A stretch of 30,060 bases of DNA from a virus. Where the stretch lies: positions 1 through 30,060 of the IMG/VR virus record IMGVR_UViG_3300043464_001146; one strand, given 5' to 3'. The notes below the pieces were generated by a model, which was not told where the DNA came from, did no database searches, and worked only from the letters and a program-made list of their open reading frames with translations. Both the position numbers and the translations under genes were made by a program. This document shows positions 3,259-6,598 of the stretch, piece after piece; the stretch's first letter is position 1; every line of letters starts with the position of its first letter.

Positions 3259-3521
3259 GCACTCAGTTTGACAACAACAACACCGGAGTTATTTCCAAAA
3301 ACCTGCGAAAAGAAGCGGACACGCATCCGGACGTGAAAGGCCAGATCACCGTAGAAGGTGTTGAGTATTGGCTAGATGGTTGGCAGCGACAGCGCAACGA
3401 CGGCACGGGTTCTTTTTACTCGCTGCGGGTTAAGCGCAAAGACGCTCCTGCTGCTGCGCCCAAGCCCTCACAAAAACCCGCACCGCGACGCGCGCAAGAA
3501 GACGAAGACATCCCGTTCTAG
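3255..3521 (+). CDS. SSB-tailed small recombination protein
   Basis: This 88-residue protein has a compact N-terminal domain (residues 1-62, VKGQITVEGVEYWLDGWQRQ region) and a Pro/Ala/Lys linker. It ends in EDEDIPF, essentially the acidic tip of bacterial SSB (DDDIPF), which docks onto many repair proteins. The body is too short for a complete classical OB fold, so it may be a reduced ssDNA-binding protein or an SSB mimic. It closes the erf-yqaJ module and is followed by a long non-coding repeat array. Confidence 0.75.
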   Translation: MSTQFDNNNTGVISKNLRKEADTHPDVKGQITVEGVEYWLDGWQRQRNDGTGSFYSLRVKRKDAPAAAPKPSQKPAPRRAQEDEDIPF

Positions 3522-3838
3522 GCAGACCCGGCGAGTCATGGCAAGGCGGGGTCACGCATGGCGCGGCATGACTAGGCAGGCGTGCCTTGGCGCGGCTCGG
3601 CAAGGCACGGCAAGGACTGGCGAAACAAGGCAGGCGTGGCTGGGCAGGGCGGGGCGAGGCGAGGCGACACCCGGCGCGGTGAGGCAGGCAGGGCGTGGCT
3701 TGGATCGGCGCGGCAGCGCAAGGCCCGGCGAGGATTGGCAGGCAAGGCGGGGCGAGGCCAGGCAAGGCGCGGCGGGGCGAGGCAGGCATGGCAGGGCGGG
3801 GCCGGGCTCGGCATGGCGCGGTGAGGCATGGCAGGCCG
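3521..3838 (+). repeat. Degenerate GGCNN pentamer array 1
   Basis: About 318 bases consist almost entirely of a period-5 motif, consensus GGC followed by two variable bases (GGCAA, GGCGG, GGCGA, GGCAT and similar). The G-rich strand is the coding strand. Because 15 bases make five codons, all frames stay open and give low-complexity Arg/Gly/Ala reading frames on both strands; none has a plausible ribosome binding site or normal composition. I treat the tract as non-coding. It fills the gap between the SSB-tailed gene and the twin hairpins. Confidence 0.85.
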
Positions 3839-3846
3839 TTTTCAGT

Positions 3847-3866
3847 GGTCAGGGACAGCCCTGACC
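3847..3866 (+). promoter_or_regulatory. Perfect 8-bp hairpin in a 5' leader
   Basis: GGTCAGGG (3847-3854) pairs perfectly with CCCTGACC (3859-3866) around the tetraloop ACAG. No U tract follows, so it is not an intrinsic terminator. It directly abuts a second hairpin and lies 38 bases before the ATG at 3904. Confidence 0.75.
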
Positions 3867-3883
3867 GATGCGAATGGCGCATC
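3867..3883 (+). promoter_or_regulatory. Second perfect hairpin in the same leader
   Basis: GATGCG (3867-3872) pairs with CGCATC (3878-3883) around loop AATGG, with no gap after the first hairpin. The ribosome binding site AGGAGAGAG follows a few bases later. The pair could coaxially stack and act as a protein-binding leader, an RNase or pausing site. Confidence 0.7.
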
Positions 3884-3903
3884 AACTTAGGAGAGAGTGA
3901 CAG

Positions 3904-4671
3904 ATGGCTACGACAAAGAGTACCGAAATCGAAGTCCCGGAGATTCGACGCGAGCGACTCACCGTCAACGTGCTTGGTCGCACCCCGCTGATTCTGAATC
4001 GACTCAGCGAAAAGGTGCTGCATGAGCTGCTAATGCCGAAAGGCCGCAAGAACGCGGCAGAAAAGGCTAGCAGCTTGAAGCATGACCCGATGGCAGAGTT
4101 TCGCAGCTCACCGCACCGGATCAACGACGACAGCGCCGCAACCTTGCTGGCTATGCCAAGCACCGCATTTAAAGGCGCGCTCAGAACAGCAGCAATTGAT
4201 GTGCCCGGCGCAGCCAAGTCGCAGATCGGCCGGCTGACGTTTATCGAGGGCGAATACATCCAAATCTTTGGCGTCCCCAAGGTTCTGATGACGCCCGTGC
4301 GCAGCGCCGACATGAACCGCACACCGGACATCCGCACCCGCTGCATCGTTCCGCATTGGGCCGCAACGATCCATGTGCATTTCGCGTCGTCAATCATTAA
4401 AACCACAAGCATCGTCAACCTGCTGACCCAGGCCGGGTTAACGATCGGTGTGGGCGATTGGCGTCCGGAGAAAGGCAGCGGAACTTTCGGCCAATTCGAC
4501 ATTGGCATGGCCGAAACCGATCCGGCGTTTGCGCAGGTTGTGAGTACGGGCGGCAGGGCTGCGCAGATTGCGGCAATGGATGACCCGCAGTGCTATGACG
4601 ATCAAACCGAGGAATTGATGGGCTGGTTCGATGTCGAGGTGAAGCGTCGCGGATTTAAGGTGGCTGCGTAA
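3904..4671 (+). CDS. Phage protein with RAMP/Cas7-like motifs
   Basis: This 255-residue protein belongs, as I remember it, to a widespread phage family that usually lacks a named function and sits near recombination genes. It starts with a basic, RLTVNVLGRTPLILN-type strand. Residues 84-94 (MPSTAFKGALR) resemble the PGSSLKGALR signature of CRISPR RAMP proteins. Residues 178-198 form a Gly-rich stretch (VGDWRPEKGSGTFGQF) like the RAMP C-terminal glycine loop. RAMP similarity is my inference, not an established assignment. The ribosome binding site is AGGAGAGAG. The stop overlaps the next start (TAATG). Confidence 0.75.
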   Translation: MATTKSTEIEVPEIRRERLTVNVLGRTPLILNRLSEKVLHELLMPKGRKNAAEKASSLKHDPMAEFRSSPHRINDDSAATLLAMPSTAFKGALRTAAIDVPGAAKSQIGRLTFIEGEYIQIFGVPKVLMTPVRSADMNRTPDIRTRCIVPHWAATIHVHFASSIIKTTSIVNLLTQAGLTIGVGDWRPEKGSGTFGQFDIGMAETDPAFAQVVSTGGRAAQIAAMDDPQCYDDQTEELMGWFDVEVKRRGFKVAA

Positions 4672-5147
4672 TGGAAACGATCAGCGAGTGGCTAGACGAG
4701 ATTGAGCGCGAGCGCCCCAACATTACACCAGACGAACTGGTGGAGTTGGCGCAAGACCCCGACTGTCCGGCGCACAACTGCTTTGAGTGGGACAACGAAA
4801 AGGCGGGGCACGCACATCGCGTGTGGCAAGCCCGCACTCTGCTTTCGCGCAGGGTTGTCATCACCACCGACAGTTACTCGCTGACCGTCCCCAGGTATGT
4901 GCGCAACCCCGAGGCGCAACCGTCAACGCAAAGTTATATCGCCACCCGCTCTATCAGCGTTGAGGACTTGCAGCACCAGACACTGGCGCAGGAGTTTGCA
5001 CGCGCCCGTGCATTGCTGGAACGCACGCGGGAGTTGTCGCGGATGTTTGGGCTGATGCGCGAAGTGGACGAGATGGTGGAGCGCCTGGGGTTGATGAGCG
5101 CAAGGGTTGTGCGTCGCCGGCCAGATGAGGATGGGCTGGCGGCGTAA
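4671..5147 (+). CDS. Conserved phage protein, partner of the RAMP-like gene
   Basis: This 158-residue protein is coupled to the preceding gene by a one-base TAATG overlap. The N-terminal half has the pattern DELVELAQDPDCPAHNCFEW followed by a helix (HAHRVWQARTLLSRRV), which I have seen in many phage early regions without a known function. The C-terminal half is a long charged helix (residues about 105-150, FARARALLERTRELSRMF) that may form a coiled coil. With 3904-4671 it forms a two-gene cassette bounded by pentamer arrays on both sides. Confidence 0.75.
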   Translation: METISEWLDEIERERPNITPDELVELAQDPDCPAHNCFEWDNEKAGHAHRVWQARTLLSRRVVITTDSYSLTVPRYVRNPEAQPSTQSYIATRSISVEDLQHQTLAQEFARARALLERTRELSRMFGLMREVDEMVERLGLMSARVVRRRPDEDGLAA

Positions 5148-5260
5148 GGCAGGCGTGGTCAGGACAGGCGCGGCGCGGCGGGGCGGGCGGGGCGGGGCAG
5201 GCGAGGACTGGCATGGCCCGGTAACGCGGGGCACGGTGTGGCAGGCGAGGTGTGGCGGTG
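5148..5260 (+). repeat. Degenerate GGCNN pentamer array 2
   Basis: The same period-5 GGCNN pattern and the same G-rich strand as at 3521-3838 fill the space between the two-gene cassette and the next gene. It fades out into AAAGGAAAGGCAAGAC, which serves as ribosome binding site for 5282. With the first array it brackets 3904-5147. Confidence 0.75.
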
Positions 5261-5281
5261 ATTGGAAAGGAAAGGCAAGAC

Positions 5282-5467
5282 ATGGCGGGCACGGTAAGTC
5301 CATTCGACACGCGGCACCTGCCGCAGCTCCAAGAAGCATTCGGCAAGCAGTGGGTGCCGCATGCAGGCAGGCCGAAAAAAGCGCGCGACACGCTCACGCC
5401 TAAGCTGCGGGCCGCTGAGCGCCTGCTGCGAAACCACGGGTACGAAGTGCGGAAACCTGGTGAATGA
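5282..5467 (+). CDS. Small basic protein upstream of the methylase
   Basis: This 61-residue protein starts at an ATG with AAGGAAAGG upstream; an in-frame GTG at 5252 would lie in the repeat array and is less likely. It is basic, with RPKKARDTLTPKLRAAERLL and NHGYEVRK, and is probably DNA-binding or helical. Its 3' end overlaps both candidate starts of the following locus (GTG 5460 and ATG 5464), so it is coupled to the methyltransferase. The family is not recognised. Confidence 0.65.
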   Translation: MAGTVSPFDTRHLPQLQEAFGKQWVPHAGRPKKARDTLTPKLRAAERLLRNHGYEVRKPGE

Positions 5468-6266
5468 GCTGGCTTTATTCGCAGGCGCTGGCGGCGGAAT
5501 ACTTGCCGGAAAGTTGCTCGGATGGAGAACCGTCTGCGCCGTCGAGTGGGAACCCTACGCAGCTTGCGTACTTGCCGCCCGACAGAATGACGGCCTTCTC
5601 CCGCCTTTCCCGGTTTGGGATGACGTTCAGACCTTTGACGGAAGACCATGGGCGGGAATTGTTGATGTCGTATCTGGCGGCTTTCCGTGCCAGGACATCA
5701 GCATCGCCGGGAAAGGCGCAGGCATCACCGGAGAGCGCAGCGGAATGTGGCGACACATGGCGCGGATCGTTGGCGAGATTCGACCGCGCTACGTCTTCGT
5801 GGAAAACAGTCCAGCACTCATTACTAGAGGACTTGGAGTCGTCCTCGGTGACTTGGCCGCGCTCGGGTATGACTGCAAATGGACAGTGCTGGGAGCTGCC
5901 GACGTTGGGGCGCCGCACCAGCGCGACAGATTCTGGCTTGTGGCCCACGCCAACAGTCTGCGGGAACTACAACCGCAAGGGAGCATCAGCGACCAGTGGC
6001 GACGGGTTGGCGACTGCTGTGCAGAAATGGCCGACGCCGACTGCGCGTTGTCACAAGGGGGGGGGGAATTCCATGACACGCAAGGATGGGAAGAGTCGTT
6101 CCGACATGCTCGACTGGGTGGTGGAGTACCAGACTGGTATGCGTCTGAACCCGGCGTGGGTCGAGTGGCTGATGGGGTGGCCGCTCGGGTGGACAGACTT
6201 AAAGCCCTTGGAAATGGACAAGTGCCAGCCTGCGCAGCAGCAGCATGGAGACTGCTAACAGAATGA
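5460..6266 (+). CDS. C5-cytosine DNA methyltransferase
   Basis: This 268-residue protein transfers methyl from SAM to C5 of cytosine. Motif I is ALFAGAGGG (about residue 5), motif IV is GGFPCQDIS with catalytic Cys77, motif VI is ENSP at 115-118 (usually ENV), motif VIII is QRDRFWLVAHA (154-164) and motif X is LKALGNGQVP (247-256). It is short compared with M.HhaI (327), with only about 60 residues where the target recognition domain should be, so specificity is unclear. The GTG at 5460 precedes motif I directly; earlier in-frame sequence belongs to the preceding gene. A G10 tract (6057-6066) lies in the gene. It probably protects phage DNA from host restriction. A second protein is encoded in the +1 frame over almost the full length. 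Confidence 0.88.
   Translation: MNELALFAGAGGGILAGKLLGWRTVCAVEWEPYAACVLAARQNDGLLPPFPVWDDVQTFDGRPWAGIVDVVSGGFPCQDISIAGKGAGITGERSGMWRHMARIVGEIRPRYVFVENSPALITRGLGVVLGDLAALGYDCKWTVLGAADVGAPHQRDRFWLVAHANSLRELQPQGSISDQWRRVGDCCAEMADADCALSQGGGEFHDTQGWEESFRHARLGGGVPDWYASEPGVGRVADGVAARVDRLKALGNGQVPACAAAAWRLLTE
5464..6258 (+). CDS. Overlapping-frame phage protein (WPTPT / LNPxWVEWLMG family)
   Basis: This 264-residue reading frame starts at ATG 5464, four bases after the methyltransferase GTG, and stays open until 6258. It has motifs I know from a recurrent family of phage proteins near Dcm-type genes: SRFGMTFRPLTEDHG (48-62), WKTVQHSLLEDLESSSVTWP (113-132), two WPTPT repeats (160-164, 189-193) and LNPAWVEWLMGWPLGWTDL (228-246). 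The WPTPT repeats coincide with AHANS and ADADC of the methyltransferase, and the last motif with its motif X region. Its function is unknown. It may be a true overlapping gene, or a shadow that looks conserved because the methyltransferase is conserved. Confidence 0.5.
   Translation: MSWLYSQALAAEYLPESCSDGEPSAPSSGNPTQLAYLPPDRMTAFSRLSRFGMTFRPLTEDHGRELLMSYLAAFRARTSASPGKAQASPESAAECGDTWRGSLARFDRATSSWKTVQHSLLEDLESSSVTWPRSGMTANGQCWELPTLGRRTSATDSGLWPTPTVCGNYNRKGASATSGDGLATAVQKWPTPTARCHKGGGNSMTRKDGKSRSDMLDWVVEYQTGMRLNPAWVEWLMGWPLGWTDLKPLEMDKCQPAQQQHGDC
6057..6066 (+). repeat. G10 homopolymer inside both overlapping frames
   Basis: Ten consecutive G lie within the methyltransferase (reads Gly-Gly-Gly-Glu) and the overlapping frame (Lys-Gly-Gly-Gly-Asn). 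Loss of one G, or a +1 shift, would move translation from the methyltransferase frame into the other frame; gain of one G does the reverse. Both frames look continuous through a length of ten. Confidence 0.85.
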
Positions 6267-6598
6267 GATACGCAAAGGTCAACGCCAGCGCGCTGGCGCG
6301 GATGATGAAAACGCTGATGGACGACGAAGTGTCGTCACGCGAACTAGCAGAGAAGACCGGGCTGTCGTACATCACGATCCTGCGCTACATCGCGGCGCTA
6401 CACAAAGAGAAGGTTGTGCACATCGTGGAGTTCCGGCGCGACAGGCTTGGCAGGCCGTGCGAGCGCGTATTTGCGTTTGGCAATGCCAAGGATGTGAAGC
6501 GCGTGCCCAAGACTCCACTGCAGATGAAGCGCGAGAGCCGTGCTCGGCTGAAACAGATTCGGATGAATCAGATGCTCGCAGGGAGGTTGGCAGCGTGA
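6263..6598 (+). CDS. Winged-helix/HTH regulator-like protein
   Basis: This 111-residue protein begins at an ATG overlapping the methyltransferase stop (ATGA) with GGAG upstream; an in-frame ATG at 6245 is possible. Residues about 10-50 form a helix-turn-helix (MDDEVSSRELAEKTGLSYIT and ILRYIAALHKEKVVHI), followed by a beta-wing-like VEFRRDRLGRPCERVFAFG and a basic tail. This architecture fits small winged-helix phage regulators. The target is unknown; candidates are the attP or promoter regions nearby. Confidence 0.7.
   Translation: MRYAKVNASALARMMKTLMDDEVSSRELAEKTGLSYITILRYIAALHKEKVVHIVEFRRDRLGRPCERVFAFGNAKDVKRVPKTPLQMKRESRARLKQIRMNQMLAGRLAA

Follow-up and report, generated by a model that had tools for sequence, protein, structure and literature searches.

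Overlapping frames in a phage genome: a proposed nested two-subunit C5-cytosine DNA methyltransferase

Here, we describe a phage locus in which two frames of the same strand, overlapping almost completely for nearly 800 bases, are both conserved protein-coding sequence. We propose that the locus encodes a nested two-subunit C5-cytosine DNA methyltransferase, with a catalytic alpha subunit in frame 1 and a recognition beta subunit in frame 2; the probability that we attach to this reading is about 0.88, with translation, assembly and activity inferred. In double-stranded DNA genomes, long overlaps on the same strand are rare, and annotation usually dismisses them; in several phages and an E. 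coli prophage that we checked, one of the two frames alone is annotated.

The two frames and their motifs

The window analysed is a stretch of 30,060 nucleotides, positions 1 to 30,060 of the IMG/VR virus record IMGVR_UViG_3300043464_001146. Beta covers 98% of the alpha gene, and the features of the locus are as follows.

5460..6266, plus strand: alpha subunit, frame 1; GTG start, TGA end, 268 amino acids; C5-cytosine methyltransferase large domain
5460..5468, plus strand: double start RTGAATGAG; alpha GTG at 5460, beta ATG at 5464, in-frame TGA directly before the beta ATG
5464..6258, plus strand: beta subunit, frame 2 (+1); ATG start, TAA end, 264 amino acids; putative target-recognition region and motif IX
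5478..5498, plus strand: alpha motif I, FAGAGGG (SAM binding); invariant in the relatives' alignment
5679..5693, plus strand: alpha motif IV, GFPCQ (catalytic cysteine); invariant in the relatives' alignment
5802..5810, plus strand: alpha motif VI, ENS; bases shared with beta SSWKT (5794-5808)
5919..5930, plus strand: alpha motif VIII, QRDR; aligned to M.HhaI
5941..5955, plus strand: beta first WPTPT segment, in the recognition region; homologous LPTP segments in split and single-chain enzymes
5982..6206, plus strand: alpha linker, residues 175-249; disorder predicted, mostly near-neutral in frame 1
6028..6042, plus strand: beta second WPTPT segment
6145..6201, plus strand: beta motif IX, LNPAWVEWLMGWPLGWTDL; matches, by profile, the motif IX that single-chain enzymes carry in frame
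6207..6227, plus strand: alpha motif X, LGNGQVP; frame 1

Frame 1 is free of stops over 5361-6266, with GTG 5460 as its conserved start. Alpha matches PF00145 across motifs I-VIII (Pfam search, E 2.8e-33) and PHROG 363 over its full length (PHROGs search, E 4e-69), and carries motifs I-VIII and X but no motif IX; the motifs I, IV, VI, VIII and X on which a preliminary description of this DNA had based its call of a C5-methyltransferase are all in place. Motifs I, IV (PCQ), VI and VIII in one chain mark a C5-cytosine methyltransferase, and alpha has them. What a single-chain enzyme has in addition, a recognition region and motif IX, is missing from alpha, and motif IX sits instead in the +1 frame. 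Across relatives the same arrangement holds, with motif X in frame 0 and motif IX in +1. Alpha is not a single-chain PF00145 member, and we suggest, without activity data, that alpha and beta together work like one.

The fold predicted for alpha has M.HhaI as its best match (Z 15.8, rmsd 3.6, 175 residues aligned), and the alpha profile matches motifs I-VIII of the same enzyme (3.6e-20). Alpha residues 175-249 have pLDDT values below 50 in the fold prediction, and the bases that encode this linker double as the putative recognition region and motif IX of beta.

Several neighbouring open reading frames were also noted. Upstream, two minus-strand ORFs (3430-4023 and 4923-5339) are rich in Pro, Ala and Arg and repetitive in composition. 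Downstream lies an HTH ORF (6245-6598), whose first ATG, if used, makes all three forward frames coding over 6245-6258; its second ATG (6263), which overlaps the alpha stop as ATGA, is the likelier start.

Conservation and selection in the overlap

That frame 2 is open is not chance. When the synonymous codons of the window's frame 1 were shuffled, keeping its protein and codon usage, frame 2 acquired a mean of 5.1 stops and none of 300 shuffles was stop-free. Among viral contigs, a search for relatives that used frame 1 as its sole query gave 80 loci (75 unique), every one of which has a frame-2 homologue at the same +1 position. Frame 2 is open in 74 of the 75 unique loci, with a single stop observed against 346 expected, so the free occurrence of frame-2 stops in relatives, which the preliminary description had named as a refutation, is not what is seen. 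A wider set of 111 loci has no internal frame-2 stops against 552 expected; this set was chosen partly via frame 2, and the 75-locus figure is the unbiased one. Among the 111 loci, antisense stops are as frequent as expected and stops in the +2 frame are in excess.

Two of the 75 unique loci carry a single lesion in one frame with the genes otherwise intact, namely a beta nonsense codon in one (L157) and an alpha stop in the other (L022/L096), both of which we read as sequencing error or recent loss.

Selection in the overlap was measured over 49 independent pairs (mean identity 0.82) by simple counting, with no full codon model, on the principle that a change in a +1 overlap may be silent for both proteins, for just one or for none. 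Overall dN/dS is 0.35 (interval 0.29-0.41) for alpha and 0.52 (0.46-0.59) for beta, and both frames stay below 1 across most of their length. Beta does so in every segment: 0.57 (0.33-0.93) at codons 2-60, 0.66 (0.44-0.96) at 61-105, 0.55 (0.38-0.78) at 106-160, 0.53 (0.48-0.58) at 161-225 and 0.32 (0.19-0.50) at 226-265. Its N-terminal 100 codons together give 0.62 (0.46-0.82). Over codons 161-225, the recognition region, alpha is near neutral at 0.92 (0.83-1.03) whereas beta is constrained.

Three controls suggest that simple counting does not create this signal: the ratio is 0.88 (0.73-1.08) for the shadow frame of the integrase of the same phage, 0.93 (0.82-1.04) for codons that precede the beta start in other nested genes, and 0.99 (0.71-1.34) over the first ~95 codons of split and single-chain genes. 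With the integrase interval reaching 0.73, a ratio of ~0.7 alone would be unconvincing, and the beta value for codons 61-105 leans also on the absence of stops. Single-chain relatives were dropped as a plain single-coding control over their whole length; their last ~60 codons keep a +1 reading, so only the first ~95 codons were used. Split and single-chain genes alike show shadow constraint over these last ~60 codons, and a simple one-chain enzyme leaves some of this constraint unexplained.

Where frame 2 codes, the synonymous sites of frame 1 are suppressed. Over codons 226-240, whose bases encode beta motif IX, only 1.5% of comparisons show a difference at fourfold sites, against 15% at codons 46-60 and 26% at codons 106-120; for reference, the figure is 46% in the integrase at similar protein identity, and saturation is ~70%. 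At codons 106-120, where motif VI and SSWKT share bases, fourfold sites stand at 0.39 of expectation. The onset of suppression shifts with the beta start. It falls within the first 60 codons in genes of the window's type; in other nested genes, with a later beta start, codons 1-105 stand at 0.90-1.00 of expectation and codons 106-150 at 0.50-0.62; and in split and single-chain genes the drop comes at codons 121-150. Because window-type pairs are closer (0.79 protein identity) than those of the control groups (0.62-0.67), moderate values of 0.58-0.77 were judged against ~0.7 for the integrase, and only strong troughs were taken as suppression. Run on relatives, the comparison of dN/dS and synonymous sites that the preliminary description had proposed finds both frames constrained.

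Split and single-chain relatives and the identity of beta

The preliminary description had also reported that frame 2 is fully open from 5464 to 6258 and carries two WPTPT segments and LNPAWVEWLMGWPLGWTDL, all of which is borne out. Its label of a second phage protein holds as far as frame 2 is protein-coding, but the product is not an unrelated one: judged from split and single-chain relatives and from profile matches, beta is the part of the same methyltransferase that holds the target-recognition region and motif IX, and alpha is the rest.

In split actinophage genes (Euratis gp33/34, Pharaoh gp79/78, Dylan gp7/6, and others like them), alpha ends just after motif VIII, and a gene in the +1 frame holds an LPTP recognition region and motifs IX and X. 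In single-chain relatives (L269, L272-L276, L280, L290, L323, L326, L327), motifs I-VIII, the recognition region and EWM(M/Q)G (motif IX) follow one another in one frame, usually with motif X, GNGVVP, in that frame as well; LPTP segments are present in the first eight of these. In profile comparisons, beta matches the motif IX of single-chain enzymes (probability 96.8, E 2e-10) and the +1-frame beta of split enzymes (E 1e-22), split beta matches the single-chain C-terminus (E 4e-48), and alpha matches the single-chain N-terminus with motifs I-VIII (E 4e-40). Sequence comparison of this kind shows that alpha and beta jointly contain what single-chain relatives contain. The N-terminal ~100 residues of beta have no counterpart in split or single-chain enzymes.

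Among protein families, beta matches PHROG 1008 ("DNA methyltransferase", 6e-31) and, around its last 40 residues, PHROGs 26627, 35493 and 27243 ("unknown function"; 2e-12, 2e-6 and 1e-8, respectively), which we infer are best read as fragments around motif IX and not as separate functions. Neither Pfam nor NCBIfam gave a match to beta, and its sequence profile found no convincing solved relative. The fold model of beta alone is of low confidence (mean pLDDT 54.4) and has no fold match in the PDB, so that a folded recognition domain is not shown; disorder in the absence of a partner would give the same low-confidence prediction, and we use the model only to note likely disorder. The idea that beta is a duplicated copy of alpha was rejected on profile comparison (probability 0.2).

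Some relatives have unusual arrangements. In L272-L276, past motif VIII, the +1 frame still reads SETWPTSG...LLPTP and is still under constraint, as though a frame change had turned a split or nested ancestor into the single chain. In a Spirochaetia contig (L241, 3000-4167), alpha stops after motif VIII and a frame-2 gene has the recognition region, motif IX and an alpha-like motif X region, an intermediate between the nested and split forms. In Vibrio phage 1.236.O (L165, 2001-2699), annotation covers the frame-2 gene alone, called a hypothetical protein, and omits the methyltransferase frame. E. coli PT62 (L387) has both frames open and frame 1 alone annotated, and E. coli PCP07014 (L388) has stops in both frames at nearly the same place (~1866-1873), in what is a RefSeq pseudogene and a decayed prophage copy.

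Nested loci are common among relatives. With the Pharaoh alpha chain as query, 80 loci divide into at least 37 nested, ~20 single-chain and ~14 split, with a few unresolved, the second count resting on a loose pattern that was read by eye; with the alpha chain of Escherichia phage K1ind3 as query, at least 35 of 46 loci are nested. Contigs with nested loci are assigned to Pseudomonadota, Patescibacteria, Verrucomicrobiota, Planctomycetota, Spirochaetota, Acidobacteriota and Thermodesulfobacteriota, the phylum-assigned genome loci having been chosen via frame 2, and phages of Escherichia, Paenibacillus, Vibrio and Mycobacterium have nested loci as well. Nested loci make up most of an unrooted tree of the catalytic part; split and single-chain genes are interleaved in one supported group, and one further single-chain group lies elsewhere. 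This suggests that the nested state is old in the class and that fusion and splitting have been repeated, although an unrooted tree does not prove direction.

The motif division itself is already known from M.EcoHK31I, the closest precedent, in which the gene for the small subunit lies inside that for the large one, in another frame, and beta is the shorter chain (176 amino acids against 309). Our locus differs in that beta spans 98% of the alpha gene and starts only 4 nt after it. M.EcoHK31I (YGGCCR) is a two-polypeptide C5-methyltransferase (Lee, Kam and Shaw 1995, summarised in PMC3404938) and, according to PMC3404938, has motifs I-VIII and X in its large subunit and motif IX in its small subunit, just as in our alpha and beta. 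That paper also assigns a recognition domain of M.EcoHK31I to its larger subunit, a placement that is itself a prediction; in our locus the region is constrained in beta and not in alpha, and the two systems may differ in this respect too. M.AquI (CYCGRG) is a split C5-methyltransferase (PMC3404938), and the split actinophage relatives resemble it, with motifs I-VIII in alpha and the recognition region, IX and X in beta. In the window, by contrast, motif X is in alpha, so that the small subunit does not hold both IX and X, and the genes are nested, not end to end. With M.HhaI and M.HaeIII, alpha shares motifs I-VIII and the predicted large-domain fold; those enzymes, unlike alpha, hold their recognition domain and motif IX in the same chain. 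A further parallel is ORF30/ORF29 of phage K1ind3 (methylase / "Mte8-like"), in which both overlapping genes are annotated, with motif X in alpha and IX in beta; this pair comes from a very diverged clade and has a different N-terminal part.

Where searched, the literature on overlapping viral genes and frame transitions gave no description of such a case. The near-complete overlap, the evidence of selection on both frames and the spread over several bacterial phyla and phages appear to be new.

Proposed mechanism, alternatives and implications

We infer that both frames are translated and that their products form an active heterodimer with a protective role. Alpha would provide the large domain for SAM binding and catalysis (motifs I-VIII and X), with a disordered linker in place of the recognition domain, and beta would supply the target-recognition region and motif IX. 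A single ribosome-binding region probably serves both starts, which by inference would hold the subunits near equal numbers. Alpha and beta would then assemble into one active enzyme that combines catalysis, cofactor binding and DNA recognition. This enzyme would methylate a specific cytosine-containing site, most likely marking or protecting phage DNA; by analogy with phage methyltransferases in general, the likely use is to mark it against restriction.

The double start of the window reads GTGAATGAG, its start codons 4 nt apart as the preliminary description had noted. Across relatives, 111 of 112 loci have ATG as the beta start, and in 101 of the 112 TGA or TAA stands immediately before it. 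Frame-1 codon 2, which creates this ATG, is AAT in 103 of 111 loci and AAC in none, though AAC is more frequent than AAT elsewhere. About one fifth of loci have a non-start codon (TTA, CTT, CTA or CTC) at the alpha start position, so alpha must begin elsewhere in these. A Shine-Dalgarno-like word lies 5' of the start pair in 66 of 112 loci, which is weak evidence in the absence of a chance control. We also weighed whether an upstream gene that ends at the beta ATG (ATGA) might serve as a coupling signal, and set this aside: the upstream open stretch is short and variable, with a median of 16 codons, and is not a conserved gene.

Alternatively, a programmed +1 ribosomal frameshift near motif VIII could give one long chain in which motifs I-VIII run on into the recognition region and motif IX of frame 2, with plain alpha made as well. 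The fused product would hold motifs I-IX, and single-chain relatives do have frame-2-like C-terminal parts fused in frame. On this model, however, the first 100 codons of frame 2 would go unused, yet they are under selection, the frame-2 ATG is kept nearly without exception along with its biased frame-1 codon, and motif X remains in frame 1; we consider a frameshift unlikely, though it survives better than the other alternatives. Another possibility is that frame 2 encodes a separate protein with a job of its own, for example a regulator or anti-restriction factor, whose overlap with the methyltransferase is incidental. The N-terminal ~100 residues of beta, for which we find no counterpart, could act in such a way, but in its C-terminal half beta is homologous to whole enzymes, namely to their recognition region and motif IX, and all classifiable nested loci have motif IX in the +1 frame and not in alpha, leaving this idea very little room. 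Least tenable of all is the view that frame 2 is a non-coding shadow, its similarity being frame-1 conservation seen out of frame, a choice between dual coding and shadow that the preliminary description had left undecided: frame 2 has no Pfam family, and single-chain relatives do show some of the +1 similarity around motif VIII as a shadow, but this view is already contradicted by the selection tests, with stops nearly absent, frame 2 constrained where frame 1 drifts, fourfold sites nearly frozen over motif IX and suppression setting in at the beta start, as well as by single-chain enzymes that encode the same sequence in frame.

The nested two-subunit methyltransferase that we favour may have a wider history, which we put forward tentatively and with somewhat more doubt than confidence. 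A class of phage and prophage enzymes across phyla would be obligately dual-coding, its nested state old and its single-chain and split members derived by frame changes. On the branch of the window, the first ~100 residues of beta would be newly overprinted with a function of their own (such as subunit docking), made only by out-of-frame reading of the catalytic domain.

The locus offers a near-complete overlap of ~800 bases in which a role is identified, by inference, for both products. Many natural variants exist, and relatives with a later-starting, split-off or fused second frame serve as built-in controls, making this a good system for studying how overlapping genes arise and persist. The finding also suggests a function for protein families now listed as of unknown function, and it carries a caution: expressing only the annotated frame of such a methyltransferase may yield an inactive enzyme.
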